DNA of 39,797 nucleotides from an uncultured Oscillospiraceae bacterium (GTDB lineage: Bacteria; Bacillota; Clostridia; Oscillospirales; Oscillospiraceae). The notes under the pieces are model-generated. The model did not search any database. It was not told the origin of the DNA and was given only the letters and a program-made list of their open reading frames with translations. Shown here piece by piece: positions 8,655-36,196 of the stretch (its first letter is position 1; every line of letters begins with the position of its first letter). A program made the position numbers and the translations under genes. Location: NCBI GenBank assembly GCA_947624035.1, contig CANQIH010000003.1, positions 1 to 39,797 of the forward strand, given 5' to 3'.

Positions 8655-8697
8655 CAGGACCGCCGCGTTTATGCGGAGGTATATCGTTCTGCAAGCG

Positions 8698-8858
8698 GAT
8701 AGCGCTCCCGCAGCGGTTTGCCGCGGACAGTCCCGCGCGTATTCCACGCGGGCCCACCCCTCCGCCATACCTGGCGGAGAAGTTCGGCGGAATTGCTTCC
8801 TCCCCCGATCACGGCCTGTCAGCTCCCGGAGGGTTCGTCGCATCCGCGCCTCTATCAC
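8698..8858 (-). promoter_or_regulatory. Lysine riboswitch (L-box) controlling dapA-dapB-dapH
   Basis: Reverse strand GATAGAGGCGCGGATG...GGGGGAGGAAGCAATTCCGCCGAA...GGGACTGTCCGC...GGGAGCGCTATC; matches L-box landmarks (GATAGAGGnGCG, GCCGAA, CTGTC, closing GCTATC). Confidence 0.92.
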
Positions 8859-8864
8859 GGGGCC

Positions 8865-9013: not shown

Positions 9014-10111
9014 ATGACCGAGCCTGTGGTGGCCCACCGCCGGGCCCTGCACCGTATCCCGGAGCTGGATGACCGCCTGCCGGAGACCGCGGCCTACGTG
9101 ACGGCGGAGCTGCAAAAGCTGGGGTGCGCGGTGTTCTCGCCCACCGAGGGCAGTGTCTGCGCCTTTCTGGACGGCGGCCGGCCCGGGACCGTGGCGGTCC
9201 GGGCGGACATGGACGCCCTGCCGGTGGAGGAGGCCACGGGGCTGACCTACGCCTCCACCCACCCGGGGATGATGCACGCCTGCGGCCACGACGGCCACAC
9301 GGCCATGGCCCTGTCCCTGGCGTCGTACGCCGCGGCCCATATCCGGGAGCTTCCGCGAAACGTGCTGTTTCTCTTCCAGCCCGCCGAGGAGACCACCGGC
9401 GGGGCAAAGGCCCTGTGCGAGAGCGGGATACTGGAGGCCTACAGCGCGGAGCGAGTGTTCGGGATGCACCTGTGGCCGGAGCTGCCCGCGGGGACGGCCT
9501 TCTGCCGCCCGGGGCCCATGATGGCCCGGTCCAGCGAGGTCACCGTCACGGTGACGGGCCGGAGCGTACACATATCCAAATACAAGGAAGGCCTGGACGC
9601 CCTGGCCGCCGGGGCGGAGTTTTTGCGCCGGGCCTATGACATGGCGGCGGAAAAGGTGCCCGGGAGCCTTTTGCGGTTCGGAAAGATGACCTCCGGCACG
9701 GTGCGAAACGCCCTCAGCGGCGCCACGGTGCTGGAGGGCACCTTCCGCACCTACTCGGAGGGCGACTTCGCCGTCTGCAAGGGGGCCCTGGCGGACATAG
9801 CCCGGGCCGTAGGGGCGGAGACCGGCTGCGCCGTGGACGTCCATTGCAGCGAGGGGTATCCGCCGGTGCTCAACGACCCGGCGCTGTATGAGACGGTCCG
9901 GGCGGCCCTGGGGGAGGATGTGCGGGAGCTGGCGGAGCCCGTGCTGGGGGCGGATGACTTCTCCTTCTACCAGCGGCGTGTGCCGGGGCTCTATTTCTTC
10001 CTGGGCGTCGGGCACACCCCGCCGCTCCACGCCCCGGACTTCGCCTTCGACGACGAGGTGGTGCTGCCCCGGGGCCTGGCCCTGTGGGAAAAGCTCATCG
10101 CGCTGGAATGA
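9014..10111 (+). CDS. M20-family metallopeptidase/amidohydrolase (candidate N-acetyl-diaminopimelate deacetylase)
   Basis: HRRALHRIPEL, VRADMDALPVEE, MMHACGHDGHTAMAL, FQPAEETTGGAKAL; AAAAGGAG RBS upstream of ATG 9014. Substrate not determinable from sequence. Confidence 0.9.
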   Translation: MTEPVVAHRRALHRIPELDDRLPETAAYVTAELQKLGCAVFSPTEGSVCAFLDGGRPGTVAVRADMDALPVEEATGLTYASTHPGMMHACGHDGHTAMALSLASYAAAHIRELPRNVLFLFQPAEETTGGAKALCESGILEAYSAERVFGMHLWPELPAGTAFCRPGPMMARSSEVTVTVTGRSVHISKYKEGLDALAAGAEFLRRAYDMAAEKVPGSLLRFGKMTSGTVRNALSGATVLEGTFRTYSEGDFAVCKGALADIARAVGAETGCAVDVHCSEGYPPVLNDPALYETVRAALGEDVRELAEPVLGADDFSFYQRRVPGLYFFLGVGHTPPLHAPDFAFDDEVVLPRGLALWEKLIALE

Positions 10112-22508: not shown

Positions 22509-24269
22509 TCATTTGATTGCCTCGGCGTCCGGGTCCCGGCCCCAGACGCGGAGCACCACGAAAAAGGCCGCCACGGACAGGGCGAGGCTTATGAGCGGCG
22601 GGCAGCCGAAGCCGGCGGGGAGACACCCCAGCAGCATGCTGACGGCGGCCACGGTGATGGCGTAGGGCAGCTGGGTCCGCACGTGGTCCAGGTTGTCGCA
22701 GCCGGAGCCCATGCTGGAGAGGATGGTGGTGTCGGTGACGGGGGAGCAGTGGTCCCCGAAGATGGAGCCCGACAGCACGCAGGCCACGCACAGGCTCACG
22801 AACCGGGAGGGGCCGGCGATCTGGCCGGCCTCCACGAACCGGTAGGCCACCGGGACCACCAGGGGCATGACGATGAGCATGGTGCCGTAGGACCCGGCGG
22901 CGAAGGAGATGGCGCAGCAGACAGCGAAGATCAGCGCGGGCATCAGCTGGTATGGCACGCCCAGGTCCACGATCTTCACGATGTAGGAGCAGGTGCCCAG
23001 CTCATCCACCACGCCGGAGAGGCCCCAGGCCAAAATCAGGATGGCCGCCGTGGGCACCAGCAGCTGTACGCCGTCCAGCCACACGGATACGCTCTCCGTG
23101 AAGGTGAAGCGGCCCTTGACCACCCCAATGAGGATGGCCACCAGGCTCGCCACCATGGTGGATACGAACAGGATGAAGGGGGTATCGGTGCTGCCGATAG
23201 CGATGCGTATCTTCTCCAGGCCGAAGGGGGCGTCCGCCGCCAGCAGACCATCCGCCACGGCGGTCCGGGAGCCGTCCACGTAAAAGCCGGCGACGGACAG
23301 GACGATCAGCACCAGCAGGGGCAGCAGGGCGTCCCAGGCGCTGGCGGCGTGGCGCACGGGCTTGAAGTCCTTCGTGAACAATGTGCCCTCGGGGGGCGCG
23401 TCGGTGCCGGAGCGCTTGCTCTCGCCCCGCCGGGCCCGGACCTCGGCCCGGAGCATGGGGCCGAACTCCCGCTTGGACAGGCTGCTCAGCAGGATGAACG
23501 CCAGGCACAGGATGTTATAAAAGCAGAAGGGGATGCTCCCCAGAAAGAGGCTGTAGGCGCTGGCCTCCGCCCCGGATTGAGCGAGACCCGAGTCGATGCA
23601 GCTCAGCTCCACCGCCACCCAGCTGGAGATCACGGCGATGCCCGCCACGGGCGCGGCCGTGGAGTCCACCAGATAGGCCAGCTTCTCCCGGCTCATGCGC
23701 AGCTTGTCGGTGATGGGCTTCATCACCGGGCCGATGATCAGGCTGTTGGCGTAGTCGTCGAAGAAGATGAGCATGCCCAGCAGCTCCCCGATCAGGTTGG
23801 CGCTCCGGGGGGAGCGGATGCGGCGGGTGAGCTTTTCCGCCAGGGCGTAGAACCCGCCGGTCTTGTTGATGACGCCCACCAGCCCGCCGATGGCGAGGCA
23901 CATGAGCAGCGTGGTGGCGTTGCCGCTGTCGGAGAATACGGCCACCACGTCCCGGCAGGCGCCGGAGGCCGTGCGCACCAGGTTCACCGGCAGGGCGGCG
24001 AGGCCCGGGTCCGCCGCGGAGGCCAGTAGGAAGGTGCCGCACAGCATCCCCAGCAGCAGGGAGCTGACCACCTCCTGGGTCAGAAAGGCCAGCAATATGG
24101 CCGCCAAGGGCGGCACCAGCGTCAGCGGGCCCGCCACGGCGCCGCCGGACTGGAACGTGCCCAATAGCAGGACTAGCGCCAGAAGGGCCGTCACCGCCGC
24201 GGTGACGGTGCTCTTCCTTCGGTACCAGGGGGGCTTTTGCCCGGCCTGGAGGGCAGTTTTTTCGTTCAC
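22509..24269 (-). CDS. NhaC-family antiporter/transporter
   Basis: 586 aa polytopic, GTG start; IFFDDYANSLIIGPVMKPITDKLRMSREKLAYLVDSTAAPVAGIAVISSW, FAAGSYGTMLIVMPLVVPVAY, SGSIFGDHCSPVTDTTILSSMGSGCDNLDHVRTQLPY. Confidence 0.9.
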   Translation of the reverse strand: MNEKTALQAGQKPPWYRRKSTVTAAVTALLALVLLLGTFQSGGAVAGPLTLVPPLAAILLAFLTQEVVSSLLLGMLCGTFLLASAADPGLAALPVNLVRTASGACRDVVAVFSDSGNATTLLMCLAIGGLVGVINKTGGFYALAEKLTRRIRSPRSANLIGELLGMLIFFDDYANSLIIGPVMKPITDKLRMSREKLAYLVDSTAAPVAGIAVISSWVAVELSCIDSGLAQSGAEASAYSLFLGSIPFCFYNILCLAFILLSSLSKREFGPMLRAEVRARRGESKRSGTDAPPEGTLFTKDFKPVRHAASAWDALLPLLVLIVLSVAGFYVDGSRTAVADGLLAADAPFGLEKIRIAIGSTDTPFILFVSTMVASLVAILIGVVKGRFTFTESVSVWLDGVQLLVPTAAILILAWGLSGVVDELGTCSYIVKIVDLGVPYQLMPALIFAVCCAISFAAGSYGTMLIVMPLVVPVAYRFVEAGQIAGPSRFVSLCVACVLSGSIFGDHCSPVTDTTILSSMGSGCDNLDHVRTQLPYAITVAAVSMLLGCLPAGFGCPPLISLALSVAAFFVVLRVWGRDPDAEAIK

Positions 24270-24361: not shown

Positions 24362-25303
24362 TCAGCCGAAGGTGAAGACCGTGCCGGTCTTGCCCTCCAG
24401 CGCGTCGATGGCCTTGTCCAGAGAGGTGATGATGGCCTTTTTGCCGGGGTTGGAGCGCACGAACTTCATGCAGGCCTCCACCTTGGGCAGCATGCTGCCC
24501 GGGGCGAACTGGCCCTCCTCCACGTACCGGGCCGCCAGGGCCAGGGACAGGTGGTCCAGGTCCTGCTGGTCGGGCTTGCCCCAGTTGACGGCCACCTTCT
24601 CCACCTCGGTGAGGATCATGAGCACGTCGGCGTCCATCTGCTCCGCCAGCAGCTCCGCGGCGAAGTCCTTGTCGATGACCGCCGCCACGCCGGTGAGGGT
24701 GCCGTCCAGGTTCTCCACCACGGGGATGCCGCCGCCGCCGCAGGTGACCACGATGGTGTTGTTCCACAGCTGCCGCACGTCCTCGATCTCCACGATCCGG
24801 CGGGGCAGGGGGGACGCCACCACCCGGCGCCAGCCGCGGCCGGCGTCCTCCTTCATGATGTAGCCCTTGGTCTCGGCCAGCTTGCCGGCCTCCTCCTTGG
24901 TGTAAAACGCGCCGATGGGCTTGGTGGGGTGCTGGAAGGCGGGGTCGTCCTTCTCCACCACCATCTGGGTCACCAGGCTCACCACGGGATAGCTGATGTT
25001 CCGGCGGGCCAGGGCATAGCGCAGGGCCTGCTGGATGTGGTATCCGATGTAGCCCTGGCTCATGGCGCCGCACACGTCGAAGGGCATGGGGGGCACCACT
25101 TCCTTGGCCGTCTCGCTGGCCAGCAGGATGCGGCCCACCTGGGGGCCGTTGCCGTGGACGATGGCCAGCTCATAGCCGCACTCGCTCAGCTCCGCGATGC
25201 GCTCGCAGGTCTGCTTGACGACCTCCAGCTGCGCTTCCGCCGTGGGAGCGCTGTTCTTTGTCTGCAGGGCGTTGCCGCCCAGCGCCACGACGATCTTGGA
25301 CAT
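24362..25303 (-). CDS. arcC: Carbamate kinase
   Basis: MSKIVVALGGNALQ, VHGNGPQVGRIL, VVTCGGGGIPVVE, AVIDKDFAAELLA, MLPKVEACMKFV. Confidence 0.95.
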   Translation of the reverse strand: MSKIVVALGGNALQTKNSAPTAEAQLEVVKQTCERIAELSECGYELAIVHGNGPQVGRILLASETAKEVVPPMPFDVCGAMSQGYIGYHIQQALRYALARRNISYPVVSLVTQMVVEKDDPAFQHPTKPIGAFYTKEEAGKLAETKGYIMKEDAGRGWRRVVASPLPRRIVEIEDVRQLWNNTIVVTCGGGGIPVVENLDGTLTGVAAVIDKDFAAELLAEQMDADVLMILTEVEKVAVNWGKPDQQDLDHLSLALAARYVEEGQFAPGSMLPKVEACMKFVRSNPGKKAIITSLDKAIDALEGKTGTVFTFG

Positions 25304-25321
25304 ATCGCTCCCTCCCATCTC

Positions 25322-26356
25322 TTACAGCAGGCCGCGCTCGGCCATGAACTTGTCCAGCTGCTCCTTGGCCGCGGCCTTTTGCAGCTCGCTGGCCTCCTGC
25401 TCGCGCTGGTACTGTGTGAAGTACACCAGAAGGCCACGCATGGCGGTCAGGCGGTTGCCGGCCTCGTCCCAGCAGATGGAGGACTCGGAGTCGGCCACCT
25501 CGTCGGTCACGTCCTCGCCCCGGGTGGCGGGCAGGCAGTGCATGAACTTGCAGCCGATGTTGCCCAGCTGCATGAGCTCGCGGTTGACCTGGTAGTCGTG
25601 GAACACGCGCACGCGCTCCTCCTTGGGCATCTCGTTCTCATAGAGGCCGTACCACACGTCGGTGTAGATGAAGTCGGCGCCCTTGACCAGGTCACGGTCG
25701 TCGCCCTCGGCGAAGGTGCCGCCGGAGGTCTTGCAATTTTCCTCGATGACGGACATGCAGGCGGCGGAGGGGCTGTCGGGCAGCAGATGGCCCTTGGGGC
25801 CGTAGTGGGCGAACTTCATGCCCAGACGGGTGGTGATCATGGCGAGAGAGGCGCAGACCTGGGTGGCGTCGCCCACGAAGACCACCTTGCAGTCCTCCAG
25901 CTTTTTGCCCCGGGGCAGGTTCTCCACGATGGTGCACATGTCACCGATCTCCTGGGTGGGGTGGTTGTAGTCGCTCATGCCGTTCAGCACGGGGATGGTG
26001 CAGGCGTTGGCCAGGTCCACCACGGTCTTGTGGTCGATGACGCGGGCCATGACGACGTCGATGAGCTGGCTCAGGACCTTGCCGGTGTCGCCGATGGTCT
26101 CATGGCCGCCCAGCTGGATCATGCCCGGCCCCAGGTACTGAGCGTGGCCGCCCAGCTGGCTCATGGCCGTCTCGAAGGAGACGCGGGTGCGGGTGGAGCT
26201 CTGCTGGAAGATCATGCCCAGGGTCTTGTCCTTCATAAGAGGGGGATAGTAGCCGGCCTTGATGCTCTTCTTGATGGCCAGGGACAGCTCGATGATGTCG
26301 AGCAGTTCTTCCTTGGTGAAATCGCTGGTGTCGATGAAATGGCGCAGGGTCTTCAT
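25322..26356 (-). CDS. ptcA: Putrescine carbamoyltransferase (ornithine carbamoyltransferase superfamily)
   Basis: [81 protein letters not shown]; adjacent to agmatine deiminase. Confidence 0.9.
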
Positions 26357-26457: not shown

Positions 26458-27600
26458 TCAGGCCTTTTTCACGCTGGGCTGGTGCTGGGTGATGCAGTGG
26501 ATGTTGCCGCCGCCAAAGGCCACTTCCTCCGTGCGGACGGGCTCGATGGTGTAGCCGGGGAACATGGCCTGGACCTGCTCCACCGCCAGGGCGTCGTTCT
26601 CGTCGCCGTACTGAGGCAGGATGATGGCCTTGTTGGTAATGAGGAAGTTCATGTAGGAGGCGATGGAGATCTCGCCCTCCTCCCGGGGGATGGCGCCGGT
26701 GGCGGTATCGATGGTGTCGGCGGCTGTGAGGCGGCAGGGCTCTTTGGTCAGGCACAGCTTGTGGACCTTCAGCTTCCGGCCCTTGGCGTCTGTGGCCTCG
26801 CACAGGGTCTTGTAGGCGGCCTGAGCCTGCTCATAGAAGGGGTTATCCTTGTCCTCGGTGTAGATGCAGGCCACCTCGCCGGGACGGACGAAGCAGGCCA
26901 CGTCGTCGATGTGGCCGTTGGTCTCGGCCGGGTCGATGCCGTCCTTGATCCAGATGATCTTCTCAAGGTTCAGATATTCCTTGAGCATGTGCTCGATCTG
27001 CTCCTTGTTGAGGGCCGGGAAGTTGCGGCCGGAGTCGGGGTTGAGCAGGCACATCTCTGTGGTGATGAGGGTGCCCTCGCCATCCACATGGATGGAGCCG
27101 CCCTCCAGGATGAAGTCCAGGCCGTCGGGATCGCTGTCCGCGTCTGTGCGGTAGGAGTCGATGCCCTGCAGGTCGCAGATCTTCTGCGCCACGGCGTCAT
27201 CGTTGGCCCAGGGGAAGTACAGGCCGTCCACCAGGCCGCCCCAGGCGTTGAAGATCCAGTCGATGCCGCGGATCTCGCCGGTCTTGTCGTTGATGACGAA
27301 GGTGGGGCCGCAGTCACGGACCCAGGCGTCGTCGCTGCTCATCTCTACCACGCGGATGTTCTCCGGCAGGCGGGCCCGGGCGTTGGCGTACTGCGTGTTG
27401 TTCACGAGCACGGTGATGGGGGTGTGCTTGGAAATGGCGATGGCCACGTTGGTAAAGGTCTTCTGGGCGGGCTTTGCGCCGAGACGCCAGTTGTCGGTCC
27501 GCTCGGGCCAGATCATGAAGACATGGTCCTGGGGCTCGAACTCGCCGGGCATACGAAAGCCGTCCTGCTTAGGGGTGGAACCGTAGATACGCTTTGCCAT
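26458..27600 (-). CDS. aguA: Agmatine deiminase
   Basis: STPKQDGFRMPGEFEPQDHVFMIWPERTDNWR, SSDDAWVRDCGPTFV, GGSIHVDGEGTLITTEMCLLNPDSGRN, AFGGGNIHCITQHQP (catalytic Cys). Confidence 0.96.
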   Translation of the reverse strand: MAKRIYGSTPKQDGFRMPGEFEPQDHVFMIWPERTDNWRLGAKPAQKTFTNVAIAISKHTPITVLVNNTQYANARARLPENIRVVEMSSDDAWVRDCGPTFVINDKTGEIRGIDWIFNAWGGLVDGLYFPWANDDAVAQKICDLQGIDSYRTDADSDPDGLDFILEGGSIHVDGEGTLITTEMCLLNPDSGRNFPALNKEQIEHMLKEYLNLEKIIWIKDGIDPAETNGHIDDVACFVRPGEVACIYTEDKDNPFYEQAQAAYKTLCEATDAKGRKLKVHKLCLTKEPCRLTAADTIDTATGAIPREEGEISIASYMNFLITNKAIILPQYGDENDALAVEQVQAMFPGYTIEPVRTEEVAFGGGNIHCITQHQPSVKKA

Positions 27601-27637: not shown

Positions 27638-29008
27638 TTATCTCTTTTTGGCACGCAGGCTGATCAAAGCCTCGCCAATGCCGATGCAGATGATCGCTCC
27701 GATGGTGATGGGCAGCACGCCTGCCAGTGTTTCCGCGTCAAAGGACAGGGGCACGGCGGTGAAGATGATGGACACAACGATCAGCAGCCAGGGGACCCAG
27801 GCCATGAACTTGAGCACCAAGGGGCCGCCGGGGACGCGGAAAGGCCGCTCCGTGTTGGGATCCTTTTTCCGGAGGGTCAGGAAAGCAGGGAACACGGGAA
27901 GATAGCTCATGAGGAACAGCACCAGGTTCAGCGCGAAGAAGCTCCAGAACAGCTCAGACTCAGGAGCCACAACGCTCATGACGCCGCCCAGAAGTACGAT
28001 CACGGAGGCCACGATACCATTCATAAGGGCAGAGCCGGTGGGCATGTCGTTCTTGGCCCAGCGCTTGGCGAAAATCTTGGGCATGTCGTTGTTCTCGGCG
28101 GCGTAGCAGGCCGTGGAGTTGACGCCCAGAGACCAAGAGATCATATTGCCGAACAGAGTGACCATGAACAGCATGGCTACCGCACCGATGAATAGGCCGC
28201 CCTCCTTGCCGCTCATGAGCACCACGGCGTCGATGAGGCCGGAGTCAGCGCTGATCTCGTCTGTGGGGATGGCGGCGCCGATGCCGAAGCCGCCCAGCAG
28301 GTAGATGGCCGCAATGAGAATGCCGCCGGCCACGATCGCCTGGGGGATCTGCTTTTTGGGGTTGGTCATGTCGCCGGAGAAGGTGCAGACGACCTCAAAG
28401 CCAAGCATATTGAAGATGATAACGGAGATGTAGGACAGGCTGTCCAGATCAAAGCTGGGAAGGAAGGTGCGGGCGGACATGTCATTGACAAATCCGTTTT
28501 TGAAGCCGAAGTAAAGTCCCATCACGCCAACCAGCACCGCCAAGGCGATCTTGATGACCGCGCAGACGTTCAGGATGATGATGTTGTCGCAGACAGGGAA
28601 GAAGGCGATGAAGGTGACGACCCACACGAAAGCCAGCTGGATCAACAGACTAGGGATGAGGCCGATCTCCACGCCGAAAGCGATGGTGATGAGATCCGGG
28701 CACATCACCGCCAACGACGCCATCCACAGGGGGAAGTTCAGCCAGTACCACCAGGAGGCGCGGGCGCCCCATTTAGAGCCGGGGTAGGCCTTGTTGACCC
28801 AGTCATACAGGCCGCCGTCGCCCTCATAGGTGGTGCCGAGCTCCGACGAGATCAGACCGTAGGGGACAAGGAACAGGACGATCATAAAGATCCACCAGAA
28901 GAACTGACTGTTGCCGATGGCCGCCACCGGCGCTGCGGCCTCGGCCACGAAAACCACGCAGATGACGGACAGCAACACGGACGCAAGGCTGAATTTCTTT
29001 TTTTCCAT
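27638..29008 (-). CDS. aguD: APC-family amino acid/polyamine transporter, probable agmatine:putrescine antiporter
   Basis: 456-aa polytopic protein with about 12 TM; first gene of the agmatine operon; APC motifs FNMLGFEVVCTFSGDMTNPKKQIPQAIVAGGILIAAIYLL. Confidence 0.85.
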   Translation of the reverse strand: MEKKKFSLASVLLSVICVVFVAEAAAPVAAIGNSQFFWWIFMIVLFLVPYGLISSELGTTYEGDGGLYDWVNKAYPGSKWGARASWWYWLNFPLWMASLAVMCPDLITIAFGVEIGLIPSLLIQLAFVWVVTFIAFFPVCDNIIILNVCAVIKIALAVLVGVMGLYFGFKNGFVNDMSARTFLPSFDLDSLSYISVIIFNMLGFEVVCTFSGDMTNPKKQIPQAIVAGGILIAAIYLLGGFGIGAAIPTDEISADSGLIDAVVLMSGKEGGLFIGAVAMLFMVTLFGNMISWSLGVNSTACYAAENNDMPKIFAKRWAKNDMPTGSALMNGIVASVIVLLGGVMSVVAPESELFWSFFALNLVLFLMSYLPVFPAFLTLRKKDPNTERPFRVPGGPLVLKFMAWVPWLLIVVSIIFTAVPLSFDAETLAGVLPITIGAIICIGIGEALISLRAKKR

Positions 29009-29114: not shown

Positions 29115-29441
29115 TCAACTTTTTCCTAAACGCCGGTCTGATTTTTTGAGGACTTTTGTCATACCTGTCCTAAACTTTTTCTAAACCTTTGTGCGTGATG
29201 CACAGGGAATCTATCGATTTTTGGCAATTTCTCCAAGCGATTTTGTGTCAATTTGACGAGGGGAGACAGGCGGCGTGGAGCGCACGACACTGCCGGGGAC
29301 GGCCCATAGGACCGTACGGCGGGCCGTCCTTCGAGGCCGCTCTTGCAAAATCTCCCGAAAGATTATAAACTATACACAACTGCATATGCAACTACAAACG
29401 GCTGCAAATGGCATGGGCCGGAAAGGAGAGGGGGATGCGCC

Positions 29442-30443
29442 GTGGGCGAGCTGATGTCGTTTCTCTATGAGAATATGATCCTGCTGGTGCACACCGGCGC
29501 CCTGGCCTTTGCCGTGTGCCTCTATCTCACCCGGCGGCAGGACCGGGAGGAGCTGCTGCCCGTCATAGGCTTTCTGAGCTTCTGCCTGCTGGACGACCTG
29601 GTGCTGGACGCCTCGGCCACGGTGCCCGTGTTCACGGCCTTCTATGACCGGTCCTTCCTCACCTCGCCGTCCATCAAGTCCGTCATCTATCTGGGGATGG
29701 GCTACTTCACCCTGCTGTTCTGGGCCCGGGTCCGGGCCCGGCGCTTCACCCCGATCCAGACGGCGGCCCTGGTCTTTCTGGGGCTGTGGCTGTTTTTCAT
29801 CCCCCTGGCGGGGCTGAACGCCGCCACCAACTGGCTGTATTTCACCGGCTACCAGGTGTTCAGCGTCCTCACGGCCCTCTACGCCCTCTGGTCCCTGCGG
29901 CATGACCCGCCTGCCCAGCACGGCCGCTGGCTCCGGGTCCTGGTGTGGACCGTGCTGGTGATGTCCCTGGCCATCGCTGCGGAGGACTCCTTTGTCATAT
30001 TCAAAGTGGACAGCTATGACCCGGACGCTTTGAGCATCTTCAGCCGGAACATCTCTGAGGATATCCTGCGGCTCGTGCTATGCGGCCTCTTCTTCGTGCG
30101 GTACGTCCCGGGCCGGGACAGCCTGCCGGAGGCGCCCGCCGGGGCGGAGGCCCCGGCGCCGGCGGAGACAGAGCCGGAGCCGGTGCCCGAGGAGAGCCCC
30201 GCCGCCCTGGAGGAGCGGCGGCGGGCGGCGTTTTTCCGGTCCCTGGGCTTGACGGACCGGGAGATCGAGATCATGTCCCTCATCCTGGACGACGCCAATA
30301 ACCAGCAGATCGGCGAGACGCTGCACATCTCCCAGGGCACCGTAAAAGCCCACATCCACAATATCTACCAGAAATCCGGCGTGACCCACCGGTATGAGCT
30401 GGTGCGGCAGTACGAGTCCTTCCGCGCCGGTCCGCCCGCCTGA
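29442..30443 (+). CDS. LuxR-type regulator with N-terminal multi-TM domain (AguR-like architecture)
   Basis: GTG start; about 7 hydrophobic segments (ENMILLVHTGALAFAVCLYL ... ILRLVLCGLFFVRYV), then LuxR HTH LGLTDREIEIMSLILDDANNQQIGETLHISQGTVKAHIHNIYQKSGVTHRYELV. Confidence 0.9.
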   Translation: MGELMSFLYENMILLVHTGALAFAVCLYLTRRQDREELLPVIGFLSFCLLDDLVLDASATVPVFTAFYDRSFLTSPSIKSVIYLGMGYFTLLFWARVRARRFTPIQTAALVFLGLWLFFIPLAGLNAATNWLYFTGYQVFSVLTALYALWSLRHDPPAQHGRWLRVLVWTVLVMSLAIAAEDSFVIFKVDSYDPDALSIFSRNISEDILRLVLCGLFFVRYVPGRDSLPEAPAGAEAPAPAETEPEPVPEESPAALEERRRAAFFRSLGLTDREIEIMSLILDDANNQQIGETLHISQGTVKAHIHNIYQKSGVTHRYELVRQYESFRAGPPA

Positions 30444-30461
30444 CGGCCATCCCCCAGGCAA

Positions 30462-30495
30462 CCATGCGCCCGCCCCTCCCGGGGCGGGCGCATGG
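30462..30495. terminator. Bidirectional terminator between convergent LuxR genes
   Basis: CCATGCGCCCGCCCC-TCCC-GGGGCGGGCGCATGG, perfect 15-bp stem, followed by CGTTTTAT. Confidence 0.85.
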
Positions 30496-30499
30496 CGTT

Positions 30500-31249
30500 T
30501 TATATCCCGCCGTTCCGGCGGATCAGGGCCATCAGCTGTACCCGGGTGGATATGCCCAGCTTTTCATAGACGTTGGCCAGGTGCCGGCGGGCGGTAGCAT
30601 AGGAGATGGACAGCCGGTCGCTGATCTCCCGCAGGGAGAGATCGGAGCACGTCAGCGCCGCGATCTCCCGCTCCCGGGCCGTCAGCCCCTCCAGAGGGAG
30701 GACGTCCGGCGGCAGCGCCGCCGTCTCGTAATGCTGTGTGAACCAAAGGCGCATGTGGTCTGTCACCAGCGCCAGCAGATACAGCTCCCGGTCCGTGAAG
30801 TCCCCGTGCTGCTGGGAGCGCATGAGCGTAAGGTCCCCGTAGCGCCTGCCGCCGCTGCGGATGACGTTGCCGCACAGGTACCGCATCCCCATGGGCAGGA
30901 CCCACTCCCGGTAGATGCGGGAGGCGTCCATGATCTCCCCGCTGACCACGTCTGAGTCCCGGTAGACGTCCACATCCTCCTGGTTCAGATACCAGGCTGT
31001 GTAGTCGTAGGGGGCGAACCGCCGGGTGTACTCCTGTTGCTCCCGCTCCGTCATGTTCAGGGAGCGGATGGCCGTCTCCTGCCCCCGGCTCCCCAGGGGG
31101 ACGTAGGTGAAAAAGGACTTCTCATGGGATATGAGCCCCGGCAGCAGCGAGAGCGTACTGTCGCACATCTGCTGCAGGCCATCCGCCCGGTGGATCGCCA
31201 AGGCGAGCTTGTGCAGGGCCTGTATCTCCTTTTCGGTAAACTGCTCCAT
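30500..31249 (-). CDS. Soluble LuxR-type regulator with N-terminal GAF-like sensory region
   Basis: 249 aa MEQFTEKEIQALHKL...; C-terminal HTH GLTAREREIAALTCSDLSLREISDRLSISYATARRHLANVYEKLGISTRVQLM. Confidence 0.88.
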   Translation of the reverse strand: MEQFTEKEIQALHKLALAIHRADGLQQMCDSTLSLLPGLISHEKSFFTYVPLGSRGQETAIRSLNMTEREQQEYTRRFAPYDYTAWYLNQEDVDVYRDSDVVSGEIMDASRIYREWVLPMGMRYLCGNVIRSGGRRYGDLTLMRSQQHGDFTDRELYLLALVTDHMRLWFTQHYETAALPPDVLPLEGLTAREREIAALTCSDLSLREISDRLSISYATARRHLANVYEKLGISTRVQLMALIRRNGGI

Positions 31250-31264
31250 GGTACCTCCGTTATA

Positions 31265-31314
31265 CATCAATTGATGCACGTGATAAAGATACACCATCCG
31301 GCGGATTGTGTCAA
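31265..31314 (-). promoter_or_regulatory. Strong promoter of the soluble LuxR gene plus 12-bp perfect palindrome
   Basis: Reverse strand TTGACA - 17 bp - TATCTT; palindrome CATCAATTGATG (31265-31276) at the predicted start site. Confidence 0.75.
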
Positions 31315-31366
31315 GGCGGGCGGCGGAGTATACTGCCCACGAAGTCAGCAAAGGAGGTATTTCCCC

Positions 31367-32359
31367 ATGAAAAAACTGTTTTCTGTCATCACGCTGGCGG
31401 CTGTCCTGCTGTCGTGCCTTGTCCCCGCCGCTGCTTTTGCGGCCGATGAGGCAGAGACCGAAGAGGCCACTCTGGTGGACGATGATTGGTACGCCGCCGT
31501 TCCCTATGAGAGCTGGGATCAGTTCGAGCCTGTGGAGACGGACCAGAGCTGGTACGATGTGTACAAAATGCCCGGCGACGTCTACGCCATCTGCTGCAAC
31601 GGCCAGTGGGAGCTGGATATCTGCTACCTCATCCTGGGCGGCGATCAGGCCCTGCTGCTGGACACCGGTCTGGGCCTGGGCGACCTGAAGAGCCTGGTGG
31701 ATACCCTTACCGACATGCCCGTGTCCGTGCTGGTGTCCCACTCGCACTACGACCACGTGGGCAACGCCCACCAGTTCGACGACGTGTGGTGCTACGACTC
31801 TGAGGCCTGTGTGGATACCCTGACCAACGGCATCGAACACGACGTGTTCGCCTACGAGCTGGAGGAGGGCATGATCGCCCGGGAGCTGCCCCGGGACATC
31901 GACCTGGATACCTATGCCATCCCCGGCACTGAGGTGACCAGGACCGTGAAGGACGGCGAGGTCATCGACCTGGGCGGCCGGACCCTGGAGGTGCTTTGGA
32001 CTCCCGGCCACACCGGTGACAGCATCATGGTCATCGACGAGGCCAACGGCATCCTGTTCACCGGTGACACCTACTATCCCGACGACCTGTACGCCTGGTC
32101 TGACGACTCCGACGTGACCGTTTACGCCGACAGCATGTGCAAAGCCGCCGACCGCATCGCAGACATGGACCTGGATTGGATATACCCGGGCCACAACGAG
32201 ATCGTCACCGGCACAGATGTGATCGAAGAGGTGGCAGGTGACCTGGAGCAGATCGTCAGCGGCGAAAAGACCGACTATGTGATCGGTGAGGAGGACTACC
32301 GCTACTACGATTTCCCCAACGATATCCGCATCGTCACGCTGGACGAGGACCCCGCGTGA
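31367..32359 (+). CDS. Exported metallo-beta-lactamase-fold hydrolase
   Basis: Signal peptide MKKLFSVITLAAVLLSCLVPAAAFAADEA; SHSHYDHVGN (HxHxDH), TPGHTGDSIMV, LFTGDTYYPD, YPGHNE; GGAGG RBS. Confidence 0.92.
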   Translation: MKKLFSVITLAAVLLSCLVPAAAFAADEAETEEATLVDDDWYAAVPYESWDQFEPVETDQSWYDVYKMPGDVYAICCNGQWELDICYLILGGDQALLLDTGLGLGDLKSLVDTLTDMPVSVLVSHSHYDHVGNAHQFDDVWCYDSEACVDTLTNGIEHDVFAYELEEGMIARELPRDIDLDTYAIPGTEVTRTVKDGEVIDLGGRTLEVLWTPGHTGDSIMVIDEANGILFTGDTYYPDDLYAWSDDSDVTVYADSMCKAADRIADMDLDWIYPGHNEIVTGTDVIEEVAGDLEQIVSGEKTDYVIGEEDYRYYDFPNDIRIVTLDEDPA

Positions 32360-32390
32360 TATCGCCGGGCGGGGTGATATGACCTTCCGC

Positions 32391-32416
32391 GGCGGGCGCA
32401 GACGCGCCCGCCGTTT
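32391..32416. repeat. 26-bp hairpin repeat, copy 1
   Basis: GGCGGGCGCAGACGCGCCCGCCGTTT: 9-bp stem, AGAC loop, T-run; downstream of the exported MBL gene. Confidence 0.85.
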
Positions 32417-32687
32417 CCTGTTCGCATGGTTTGCCGGAGCCAGGGGTTCTGCGTATCGGGATAAACCGGGCTAAACCCGGAAAAACGCCCGGCGCGCAAG
32501 GGTTTGCGGGCCTGCCTAACACGGCCGTATAAACCCGGGATGCCGGAAAAATCACGGACATTTCACGGGAAAGATGATTTTAAACCCGGTCCGGGTCCGG
32601 TATTTTGGATACAGAAGCGGCGCCCCTTGGGCCATGGGGCGGTCCGGAAGCCTGAAGACTATTTTATCACGCGAAAGGAGCAATCAA

Positions 32688-34430
32688 ATGAAAAAGACTG
32701 CACGCACCCTGTCCCTGGTCCTGGCGCTGGCCATGACTATGACCCTGTTCGCCGGAACAGCCTTCGCCGCGGAGGGGCCCGCGGACATGGTCCTGAAAGG
32801 CGGCGTCGTGGAGACCATGGTGGACCACGCCGAGGCCGAGGCCCTGGCCGTGAAGGACGGCGAGATCGTCTATGTGGGCGACGACGCCGGAGCGGAGGCC
32901 TACATCGGCGAGAACACCCAGGTCATCGAACTGGACGGCCGGATGGTGGCCCCCGGCTTCATCGACGGCCACATCCACGGGGCTATGCCCTACCTGACCG
33001 AGGAGACCGAGCTGAGCCTGGCTGGTATGGAAGCTGATCTTGAGGGTTACAAGGCCGCTGTCAGCGAGTTCGTGGAGGCCCACCCCGACTATGATATCTA
33101 CCTCATCGGCTCCATGGACCTGAAGGCCTTCCCCGAGAGCCAGGCCGAGAACTCCTGGCTGGACGAGATCTGCAGCGACAAGCCCATTGCCTGCACGGAT
33201 GTCTCTCTCCACGGCAGACTGCTCAACTCCAAGGCCATTGAGATGTGCGGCCTGACCAAGGACACCCCCAATCCCCCCAGCGGCAACATCTATAAGGATG
33301 AAAACGGTGAGCTGACGGGCTACTTCTCCGATTGCTCGGATATCCTGACCGGCCTGCCTGAGTTCGAGTACACCGACGAGCAGAGGACGGAGGCGTTCCT
33401 GAAGCTCCAGGCCGAGGCCAACAGCTATGGCGTGACCTCCTTCGACTCCGGCGGCGAGGACGTGATGACCCCGGAGCTCCTCAACGACCTGTACGAGGAG
33501 GGCAAGCTGAACGTCCGCTTCAACTACAATTTCTTCTGGCCTGACGCCAGCACGGAGGGCGCCGAGGGCGCTATCCAGTACATCGAGGACAACAAGCAGT
33601 ATGAGTCCGACTTCCTGAACGTCCGCCAGGTAAAGTTCAAGGTGGACGGCGTGCCCGAGGGCAAGAGCTCCTATCTGCTGGAGCCCTATGACCCGGCAGC
33701 CGGCGAGGCCCCGGACTATGTGAGCTCCGCCGCTTCCACCCAGGAAGACCTTACTGATTTTGTCGTGGCTGTGAATACGGCTGGTTACACCGTCCAGACC
33801 CACTGCATGGGCGACGCCTCCGTGCAGATGGCTGTGAACGCCTACGAGGCCTCCCAGGATGCCCTGGGCGACGCCCAGAAGGAGTGCCGCAACAAGATCG
33901 CCCACGTGAACCTGGTCCTGGAAGAGGACGTGCAGCGCATGGCCGACCTGAAAGTCATCGCCGCCATGCAGCCCATGTGGTTCTACTACGACCCCTTCTT
34001 CTCCCCCCTGGAGGAGCAGATGTTCGGCGCGGAGCGCTTCGCCTCCGAGTACCACATCCGCGATATGATGGATACGGGCCTGATCATCACCGGCTCCAAT
34101 GACTACTATGTGACGCTGGATTTCGCGCCCCTGCACGCCATCGAGGCCGGCGCCACCCAGTGCTCTCCCTATCCCGGCGAGGACACCCAGCCCGATCTCT
34201 ACACCCGCAACGCCGACCAGGCTGTGAGCGTGTATGAGATGATGCAGCTGTACACCACCAATGCAGCCTACGGCGCCTTCCTGGACGACCGGGCGGGCAC
34301 CATCGAGGTGGGCAAGAAGGCCGACCTGGTGGTCCTGGGCCAGAACATCCTGACCTGTGACGTGACGGCTATCTCCGACACCACGGTGGATTACACCATC
34401 TCCGACGGACGCATCGTCTACGAGGGCTGA
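32688..34430 (+). CDS. Exported amidohydrolase family protein (YtcJ/amidohydrolase-3-like)
   Basis: Signal peptide MKKTARTLSLVLALAMTMTLFAGTAFAAEG; MVAPGFIDGHIHGAMP, VKFKVDGVPEGKSSYLL, YTVQTHCMGDASVQMAVNAYE, IAHVNLV, GTIEVGKKADLVVL. Confidence 0.9.
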   Translation: MKKTARTLSLVLALAMTMTLFAGTAFAAEGPADMVLKGGVVETMVDHAEAEALAVKDGEIVYVGDDAGAEAYIGENTQVIELDGRMVAPGFIDGHIHGAMPYLTEETELSLAGMEADLEGYKAAVSEFVEAHPDYDIYLIGSMDLKAFPESQAENSWLDEICSDKPIACTDVSLHGRLLNSKAIEMCGLTKDTPNPPSGNIYKDENGELTGYFSDCSDILTGLPEFEYTDEQRTEAFLKLQAEANSYGVTSFDSGGEDVMTPELLNDLYEEGKLNVRFNYNFFWPDASTEGAEGAIQYIEDNKQYESDFLNVRQVKFKVDGVPEGKSSYLLEPYDPAAGEAPDYVSSAASTQEDLTDFVVAVNTAGYTVQTHCMGDASVQMAVNAYEASQDALGDAQKECRNKIAHVNLVLEEDVQRMADLKVIAAMQPMWFYYDPFFSPLEEQMFGAERFASEYHIRDMMDTGLIITGSNDYYVTLDFAPLHAIEAGATQCSPYPGEDTQPDLYTRNADQAVSVYEMMQLYTTNAAYGAFLDDRAGTIEVGKKADLVVLGQNILTCDVTAISDTTVDYTISDGRIVYEG

Positions 34431-34468
34431 TATCTCCTCCCTCCCCTCGTATAGCGATACGGCCGGGC

Positions 34469-34494
34469 GGCGGGCGCAGACGCGCCCGCCGTTT
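34469..34494. repeat. 26-bp hairpin repeat, copy 2
   Basis: Identical GGCGGGCGCAGACGCGCCCGCCGTTT downstream of the amidohydrolase gene. Confidence 0.85.
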
Positions 34495-34688
34495 CCGGCT
34501 GTCAAAGAAGTTTCTTTGACAGCCGGAAAGCCGAGTATTTCCTGCCGGCAAAGCCGTCATGAAATACTGCCGCTACGCGGCGCAAATGCGCCATTTGCCG
34601 GCTTTTGATCCCATTTGAGGCGGGGCTCCGCCCCCCTCAAGCTCCCCCTGCATCATCCAAATATAAGCGTTTTTTGACAAGCTCGGGC
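34495..34688. repeat. Highly structured intergenic block between hairpin repeat copies 2 and 3
   Basis: Perfect 15-bp inverted repeat CCGGCTGTCAAAGAA/TTCTTTGACAGCCGG (34495-34526); AGTATTTC...GAAATACT, TGCCGGCAAA...TTTGCCGGC and GGCGGGGCTCCGCCCCC inverted repeats. Confidence 0.65.
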
Positions 34689-34714
34689 GGCGGGCGCAGA
34701 CGCGCCCGCCGTTT
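34689..34714. repeat. 26-bp hairpin repeat, copy 3
   Basis: Identical GGCGGGCGCAGACGCGCCCGCCGTTT followed by TTCTG. Confidence 0.85.
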
Positions 34715-34788
34715 TTCTGTAACGTCAAATTTCTTTCCATCCCGCCGGGTCTGTGGTATGATAAAACAACAAAAAGGAGTGGGAACGA

Positions 34789-35781
34789 TTGTATCTTGCT
34801 GCGATCAGCCTGGCGGACGGCCTCGTGAAGCTGGTCTGCACCGGGGCTGTGGTCCTGTCCCTCACCCGCTGGCTGCGGGAGCGGCGGCGTCTGGACCTGC
34901 ATCTGCTGGTCCAGTTCGCGGTCATGCTGCTCATCGAGATCTATGTTTACGCCCAGGAGACAGACCCGCCTCTCGCGGCTTTTCTGGACCTGCCCGTCGT
35001 TCCCTCCCTGGTGCTCAAGTCCATCTGTTACGACGCCGTGGTGCTTTTGATGACCTGGGCCCTCTTTGAGGCCGGTGGACAGAAGGTCCCGGCGGTCTGG
35101 GCGGTCCCGGCCCTTCTGGTCTGCGTCTGGACCCTGTGCGTCCCGCTGACCTTTGGCGCCACGGTCCTGACCAGCTACAGCATCTATCTGCTGCCCTACG
35201 AGGCATACACCCTGGCGCTGTCTCTGCGGGGCTTCCGGCTGGCCGGACGGGATGGGCCCCTCCGCAGCCCGGTCCTGCGGGCTGCCCCGGCGCTCACTGT
35301 CCTCATCATCCTGGAGGACGTGTTCTATGCCTGGAGCGCCGGGTTCACCACCAGTTACGGGTTTTATATGGCCAGCGGTCTTTACCTCAAGGAGCGGAAC
35401 TACTTTGAGACCCTGCTGTTTTTCCTGCTGGCCTGCGCGTGGGTCCGGGACAGCATCCGGGTCCTGAGCGCCGCCCCCGCTGTGCCCGCCCCAGCAGAGC
35501 CGCCGCCTCCGGTCCCGGAGGAACAGCCCCGGCCGGAGCGGTACGGGGACTTCGCGGAGGCCATCGGCCTCACTGCCCGGGAGCGGGACGTCCTTCTCCT
35601 GTTGCTGGACGGAGAGACGGTCCAGGAGATCGGCGACCGGCTCTACATCTCATGGAACACCGTCAACACCCACATACGAAACATCTGCCAGAAGGCCGGC
35701 GTGACCCGCCGGGCGGAGCTGGCGGAAAAGGCGGCGGCCTTTCGGCCCGCCCCGCCCGGACAGGAGGAGCGCGATGGATGA
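34789..35781 (+). CDS. LuxR-type regulator with N-terminal multi-TM domain
   Basis: TTG start 9 nt after AAAAAGGAG; several TM segments, Pro/Ala linker, then LuxR HTH IGLTARERDVLLLLLDGETVQEIGDRLYISWNTVNTHIRNICQKAGVTRRAEL. Confidence 0.9.
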   Translation: MYLAAISLADGLVKLVCTGAVVLSLTRWLRERRRLDLHLLVQFAVMLLIEIYVYAQETDPPLAAFLDLPVVPSLVLKSICYDAVVLLMTWALFEAGGQKVPAVWAVPALLVCVWTLCVPLTFGATVLTSYSIYLLPYEAYTLALSLRGFRLAGRDGPLRSPVLRAAPALTVLIILEDVFYAWSAGFTTSYGFYMASGLYLKERNYFETLLFFLLACAWVRDSIRVLSAAPAVPAPAEPPPPVPEEQPRPERYGDFAEAIGLTARERDVLLLLLDGETVQEIGDRLYISWNTVNTHIRNICQKAGVTRRAELAEKAAAFRPAPPGQEERDG

Positions 35782-36196
35782 AATGACTCTTACGCCGGTC
35801 GAGCAGGCGCTGCGAAAGCGGTACTTCCCCCGCATCCCATGGGGACCGGAGGGGCCGGTGCGCCGCCGGTACCGGGTCCGGGCGGCGGAGGAGGGCGTGA
35901 GCCCATCCGAGGCTCTGGCGAAGCTGGCGGAGGCCGAGGGCTTCACGGCCCCGGACCGGCCATGGATAGAGGGGGACGGGGCGGTGTGTCTCGCCGCCTT
36001 TCAGGACCGGCCGGGGGAGAGCGAAGCCGGTCTGGTCATCGGCCGGGGGCTGGACGTATACTGGTGCGACCTGGCCCTGGGAGCGCCGGACAGCGACGGC
36101 TGGCAGGAGCTGATCGTCCGCAGCGAGACGGGGGAGAACCTGATCGCCCTGGCCCACGGGATGGGGACCCTGCGGTTCCGAAAAAGCGGAATATAA
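35774..36196 (+). CDS. Hypothetical protein translationally coupled to the upstream LuxR gene
   Basis: 140 aa MDEMTLTPVEQALRKRYFPRIPWGPEG...; start overlaps the LuxR stop by 8 bp. Confidence 0.7.
   Translation: MDEMTLTPVEQALRKRYFPRIPWGPEGPVRRRYRVRAAEEGVSPSEALAKLAEAEGFTAPDRPWIEGDGAVCLAAFQDRPGESEAGLVIGRGLDVYWCDLALGAPDSDGWQELIVRSETGENLIALAHGMGTLRFRKSGI

Follow-up and report, generated by a model that had tools for sequence, protein, structure and literature searches.

Introduction

In Enterococcus faecalis, the agu operon for agmatine use is divergent from aguR, a luxR-like gene that is required for its induction by agmatine (PMC3796520), and the AguR protein of Lactococcus lactis senses extracellular agmatine from the membrane (PMC4696319). 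Here we analyzed a 39,797-nucleotide stretch of DNA (the window; contig CANQIH010000003.1, assembly GCA_947624035.1) from an uncultured Oscillospiraceae bacterium, in which an agmatine deiminase (AgDI) operon adjoins three LuxR-type regulators (LuxR1, LuxR2 and LuxR3) and two enzymes with export-like signals, namely a metallo-beta-lactamase (MBL)-fold hydrolase and a YtcJ-like amidohydrolase. All coordinates are positions in the window. A sequence-only reading of positions 29442-36196 (the interval) had treated the three regulators and both enzymes as one locus that senses and degrades an extracellular small molecule. Our analysis indicates that the region is probably an accessory agmatine-use island, made up of an AguR-controlled AgDI operon and an independent LuxR2-MBL divergon, with the amidohydrolase and LuxR3 as uncertain neighbours.

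Results

A complete AgDI operon is found at 22.5-29.0 kb, outside the interval and divergent from LuxR1 (Table 1). Directly to the left of LuxR1, the opposite strand encodes an APC antiporter, agmatine deiminase, putrescine carbamoyltransferase, carbamate kinase and an NhaC-type antiporter. AguA, the carbamoyltransferase and the kinase all score above the curated NCBIfam cut-offs. The APC permease occupies the place expected of the agmatine/putrescine antiporter and is a candidate for that role, passing no equivalog cut-off. An NhaC-type antiporter gene takes the fifth position of this operon in the window (22509-24269) and likewise in L093 and L095, three genomes in all.

Full-length homologues of LuxR1 were confined to eight Enterococcus records among the 72,556 plasmid records searched, and LuxR1 shares 27-31% identity with the regulators of Enterococcus agu loci over 98-99% of its length. 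The regulator is divergent from ptcA-aguD-aguA-arcC in two of the three Enterococcus regions inspected and from ptcA in the third (E. faecium), while in the other five records it lies approximately 3-4 kb from an agu match, on the opposite strand. The arrangement seen at LuxR1 is the same in L093, L095, L153 and L155. A direct repeat, CTAAAC-N4/5-CTAAAC, is present between the agu genes and the regulator in every one of the six AguR-type loci compared, which come from the window, from two Lachnospiraceae-type genomes and from three enterococci. With up to three mismatches allowed, this repeat has a single match in the window and none in shuffled sequences; a term search of the text of PMC3796520 returned no description of a direct repeat or AguR binding site. 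LuxR1 is an AguR-type regulator and putative agmatine sensor that belongs to the AgDI operon and not to the hydrolases, and its association with agu exceeds chance.

A second pairing concerns LuxR2 and the MBL gene, which are divergent, as had been described, with 117 bp between them. At E<=1e-45, a GTDB-wide scan with an MBL pattern returned one relative, 68% identical, in a metagenome-assembled genome (MAG) of another family that is labelled Hespellia sp. (L064). At the same threshold, a class sample of 391 genomes held no MBL orthologue besides that of the window, and two were found among 358 family-mates of the Hespellia-labelled genome, that genome included. Matches on plasmids were approximately 26-33% identical over part of the protein only. 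In L064, LuxR2 is again divergent from MBL and the pair adjoins an AgDI-NhaC block, the AguR-type gene being on the far side of the block, whereas in the window LuxR2-MBL is on the regulator's side. The alignment of the two intergenic regions scores 38.5, whereas shuffles reached at most 15. In each genome the -35 element of the LuxR2 promoter overlaps that of the MBL promoter, and a palindrome (CATCA-NN-TGATG) lies shortly downstream of the LuxR2 -10. This palindrome occurs once in the window, where the only other match to a 16-mer pattern is distant, at position 10.7 kb, and has three mismatches, and a window scan showed none shared near the amidohydrolase or LuxR3. Conservation of the two genes and of the DNA between them in a distant genome makes LuxR2 very likely a dedicated regulator of the exported MBL; this association, too, exceeds chance.

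All three LuxR helix-turn-helix open reading frames (ORFs) pass the Pfam GerE cut-off. Several hydrophobic segments are present in LuxR1 and LuxR3 and none in LuxR2, so that on hydropathy the first two are membrane proteins and LuxR2 is soluble, in agreement with the sequence-only reading. Its description of LuxR2 as GAF-like is plausible, with a GAF match that is sub-threshold (14.3 bits against a cut-off of 22.4). As regards a possible acyl-homoserine lactone-binding LuxR, no Pfam match to the autoinducer-binding domain was obtained for LuxR2 at E values up to 1. Soluble relatives of LuxR2 (approximately 22-30% identity) can be found beside aguA/aguB or polyamine-transport-like genes (L104, L080, L118 and L036), and others, by eye, beside apparent acyl-CoA dehydrogenase or CoA-transferase genes (L030, L031, L033-L035, L038 and L041).

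The MBL passes PF00753, and its ligands H125-x-H127-x-D129-H130, H215, D234 and H276, which include the HxHxDH motif noted earlier, are invariant in 14 aligned homologues; on these residues it is an MBL-fold hydrolase with a dinuclear-type site. Its structure model is of moderate confidence (predicted local distance difference test, pLDDT, 75.7) and matches generic MBL folds. The N-termini of both the MBL and the amidohydrolase are signal-like and end in AFA/A, as had been read, and an export signal is present in each of the three MBL orthologues found. The accompanying claim that a lipobox cysteine is missing is insecure for the MBL: by inspection, VLLSC17 fits a relaxed lipobox, and the Hespellia orthologue has a clear one (MVGC). 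For the protein in the window, the AFA/A type I site appears more likely than the lipobox.

The amidohydrolase passes PF07969, which bears out its YtcJ-like assignment, and has the metal-ligand residues of its family (H95, H97, K316, H372, H406 and D472). Its model (pLDDT 76.7) has a fold like 3icj/3igh. Identity to the nearest amidohydrolases is 31-36%; in a 151-genome family sample, the closest homologues were 32-36% identical and came from five genomes, none of which had a homologue of the MBL or LuxR2 at the thresholds applied. Several of these amidohydrolases begin with signal-like sequences, and a secreted YtcJ-like, metal-dependent bile salt hydrolase (metalloBSH) has been described (PMC13081902); the earlier argument that such enzymes are usually cytoplasmic is thus weak for the amidohydrolase. 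More distant amidohydrolases can be found beside aguA in L099, between AguD-like and NhaC-like transporter genes in L158, and, in the Hespellia-labelled MAG (L095), between AguR-family paralogues near the AgDI block, the last being 26-27% identical and not exported. Three AguR-family paralogues accompany one AgDI operon at L095:1315-7731, and two of these paralogues border MATE and amidohydrolase genes.

LuxR3, which has a TTG start codon with a good ribosome-binding site, is a probable divergent paralogue of LuxR1, and a window scan found no AguR box near it. One terminator-like hairpin follows the MBL gene and two more separate the amidohydrolase from LuxR3, which argues against a single operon. 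Identical 23-base hairpin cores occupy three intergenic sites of the island (32391-32413, 34469-34491 and 34689-34711). The amidohydrolase and LuxR3 are only weakly linked to the rest of the island.

Among 34 congeners, substantial DNA matches to the interval were limited to a dispersed repeat and to sequence from about 35.79 kb onward, the latter matching in at least 31 of the 34 among the matches listed. Most of the relatives inspected share with the window the backbone genes downstream of ORFx (glyII-DTD-RelA), but have different genes ahead of it, which from their sequence read as oxidoreductase genes. The intervening HD gene gave no match, and a search that covered three congeners did not find AguA in them. 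By these comparisons the island is accessory and absent from the 34 congeners. The G+C content at third codon positions (GC3) of its genes is like that of the flanks, and composition therefore gives no evidence of recent transfer. The dispersed repeat (approximately 190 bp; 34492-34687) has at least seven other copies in the same genome, 91-96% identical, and partial copies in congeners. There was no PADLOC match to suggest a defence function, and riboswitch control of the island was rejected, the sole Rfam match in the window being a lysine riboswitch upstream of dapA (8692-8862, minus strand).

Table 1. Genes and proposed DNA elements of the agmatine-use island and its borders.
Feature	Position	Strand	Basis or remark
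NhaC-type Na+/H+ antiporter, last agmatine-operon gene	22509..24269	-	PF03553 1e-49; 52-53% homologue in same position in L093 and L095
arcC/aguC carbamate kinase	24362..25318	-	TIGR00746 405 bits, cut-off 358
ptcA putrescine carbamoyltransferase	25322..26356	-	TIGR04384 537 bits, cut-off 500
aguA agmatine deiminase	26458..27600	-	TIGR03380 541 bits, cut-off 382
APC-family antiporter, aguD-like	27638..29008	-	PF13520; 64-66% homologues in same place in L093 and L095
Proposed AguR box, direct repeat CTAAAC-TTTTT-CTAAACC	29170..29187	+	Kept in six AguR-type loci
LuxR1, AguR-type membrane LuxR regulator	29454..30443	+	GerE; alternative GTG start at 29442 possible
LuxR2, soluble LuxR regulator, weakly GAF-like N-terminus	30500..31249	-	GerE; 46% orthologue divergent from MBL in L064
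Proposed LuxR2 operator, palindrome CATCAATTGATG	31265..31276	no strand	Counterpart in L064 at 9862-9873
Predicted LuxR2 promoter TTGACA-17-TATCTT	31286..31314	-	Consensus scan; same element in L064
Predicted MBL promoter TTGTGT-17-TATACT, -35 overlapping that of LuxR2	31306..31334	+	L064 TTGTGT-17-TATTAT, same spacing
Exported MBL-fold hydrolase, dinuclear-type ligand set	31367..32359	+	PF00753; orthologues 68% and about 59%
Terminator-like hairpin 3' of MBL	32389..32414	+	23-base core identical at 34469 and 34689
Exported YtcJ-like Amidohydro_3 amidohydrolase	32688..34430	+	PF07969 2e-75; best PDB match of model 3icj
LuxR3, probable divergent AguR paralogue	34789..35781	+	GerE; 28-31% to LuxR1
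ORFx, genus-backbone gene	35774..36196		Last ORF of interval

Discussion

From the gene identities, their linkage and the conserved DNA elements, we infer the ligands, the direction of control and the substrates as follows. LuxR1 would act as a membrane-bound one-component sensor of extracellular agmatine that binds the CTAAAC direct repeat and activates aguD-aguA-ptcA-arcC-nhaC, the products of which would take up agmatine and yield putrescine, CO2, NH3 and ATP. The soluble LuxR2 may sense a cytoplasmic cue and bind the palindrome between the overlapping divergent promoters, where it would repress its own gene and activate the exported MBL hydrolase. The substrate that this enzyme could cleave would lie outside the cytoplasm and may be connected with feeding on agmatine or amines. 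LuxR3, the probable AguR paralogue, and the exported amidohydrolase would be neighbours in separate transcription units.

Several points weigh against this account. The activation and autorepression by LuxR2 are read from site positions only, the LuxR2-MBL-agu association is known from two genomes only, and the genome that contains the window is a MAG of approximately 75% completeness in 239 contigs. In addition, a third MBL orthologue (G677; L173:9909-10922), which is 56% identical to the Hespellia protein and approximately 59% identical to that of the window, has an export signal and is surrounded by GH3 glycosidase genes, with neither LuxR2 nor agu there. The link between the MBL and agmatine is therefore suggestive and not established.

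Among the alternatives, the one that survives best is that unrelated genes came together as passengers in an accessory region that varies within the genus, LuxR1-agu and LuxR2-MBL being the only functional pairs; we regard this as a serious contender that falls somewhat short of probable. It fits an island that has no DNA match in 34 congeners except the dispersed repeat and the flanking ORFx, the presence of other genes ahead of ORFx in those congeners, and the separate terminators. However, the recurrence of MBL-LuxR2 near an AgDI operon in a second family is unlikely by chance, given an estimated chance of approximately 0.6% that a random gene falls within 10 kb of aguA in a 3.2 Mb genome.

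It is possible, though we consider it unlikely, that the exported enzymes feed the agmatine pathway, the MBL and/or the amidohydrolase splitting extracellular conjugates to yield agmatine or an amine or amide related to it, under tuning by LuxR2 and LuxR3. MBL-LuxR2 is found beside AgDI genes in two families, on different sides, and the agu-linked distant amidohydrolases (L099 and L158) and the LuxR2 relatives near aguA/aguB or polyamine-transport genes point in the same direction. Against this, the amidohydrolase cases are not orthologous (26-31% identity), the third MBL orthologue shows no agu link, and related soluble LuxRs also adjoin acyl-CoA dehydrogenase genes. Extended agmatine scavenging seems to us quite improbable; in it, the LuxR2-controlled exported MBL, possibly joined by the exported amidohydrolase under the AguR paralogue, would supply the AguR-controlled AgDI operon with agmatine or a related amine set free from conjugates outside the cell.

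We consider it very unlikely that there is one sense-and-degrade locus in which three LuxRs control the MBL and the amidohydrolase, jointly processing one extracellular small molecule. Both enzymes look exported and are surrounded by regulators, LuxR2-MBL is a conserved divergon, and in L095 a distant amidohydrolase also sits between AguR-family paralogues near an AgDI block; that protein, however, is without a signal peptide. LuxR1 belongs to agu, which rules out three co-operating regulators, and the idea of dedicated regulators very probably holds for LuxR2 and the MBL. The LuxR2 palindrome is not shared near the amidohydrolase or LuxR3, and hairpins separate the units. In the 151-genome sample, the genomes with homologues of the MBL, the amidohydrolase or LuxR2 overlap only in the window's own, so the co-occurrence on which the sequence-only reading depended is largely missing for the enzyme set. 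The evidence supports association beyond chance for LuxR1-agu and for LuxR2-MBL, but does not extend to the whole set. Finally, we find it scarcely credible that the amidohydrolase belongs with the secreted, metal-dependent bile salt hydrolases. It shares with them the Pfam family, secretion, the metal-ligand set, the auxiliary His (H175) and a Ser matching S194, but has E324 and M374 at the positions of Q381 and N443 (placed by spacing from the aligned ligands, with BwBSH1 unaligned) and is only 580 aa long.

The preferred account, an agmatine-use island with an independent LuxR2-MBL divergon, moves a regulator from an uncultured gut-type lineage into a known sensor family. It also proposes an AguR operator common to Enterococcus and Clostridia and describes a compact LuxR-MBL switch whose promoters are conserved. 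Action of the hydrolases on agmatine conjugates, if it occurs, would be an unreported extracellular step of agmatine use.

Compared with described systems, the MBL resembles class B1/B3 metallo-beta-lactamases in its fold and export, and SPM-1 and CcrA are the top PDB matches of its model. B1 enzymes have a zinc-binding Cys at the position of its Asp234, and its best score against the NCBIfam bla models, all far below their cut-offs, was 45.8 bits against a cut-off of 100; on both counts it is ruled out as a B1/B3 beta-lactamase. The amidohydrolase is, like the metalloBSH of Bilophila wadsworthia (PMC13081902), a secreted Amidohydro_3/YtcJ-like protein with the same metal-ligand set, from which it differs at the sulfonate-binding positions and in lacking the C-terminal domain. 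The 12-transmembrane LuxR regulators of Eggerthella lenta (PMC9734109) are likewise membrane-anchored LuxR activators of catabolic genes, whereas LuxR1 and LuxR3 are approximately 330 aa long, with a short multi-transmembrane region, and are related to AguR; size and homology exclude them from the Eggerthella type. Closer to the window is the Hespellia-labelled MAG (L064/L095), which shares the gene order aguD-aguA-ptcA-arcC-nhaC, AguR-type regulators and the LuxR2-MBL divergon with conserved promoters. It differs in having the divergon on the other side of the operon, three AguR paralogues, an MBL that is likely a lipoprotein, and an amidohydrolase that is distant and not exported. Relative to the AgDI locus of E. 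faecalis (PMC3796520), the window has another gene order and adds the NhaC antiporter, LuxR2-MBL, the amidohydrolase and LuxR3, while the two have in common a membrane LuxR-type regulator that is similar over its full length and divergent from ptcA/aguD/aguA/arcC, as well as the direct-repeat element.

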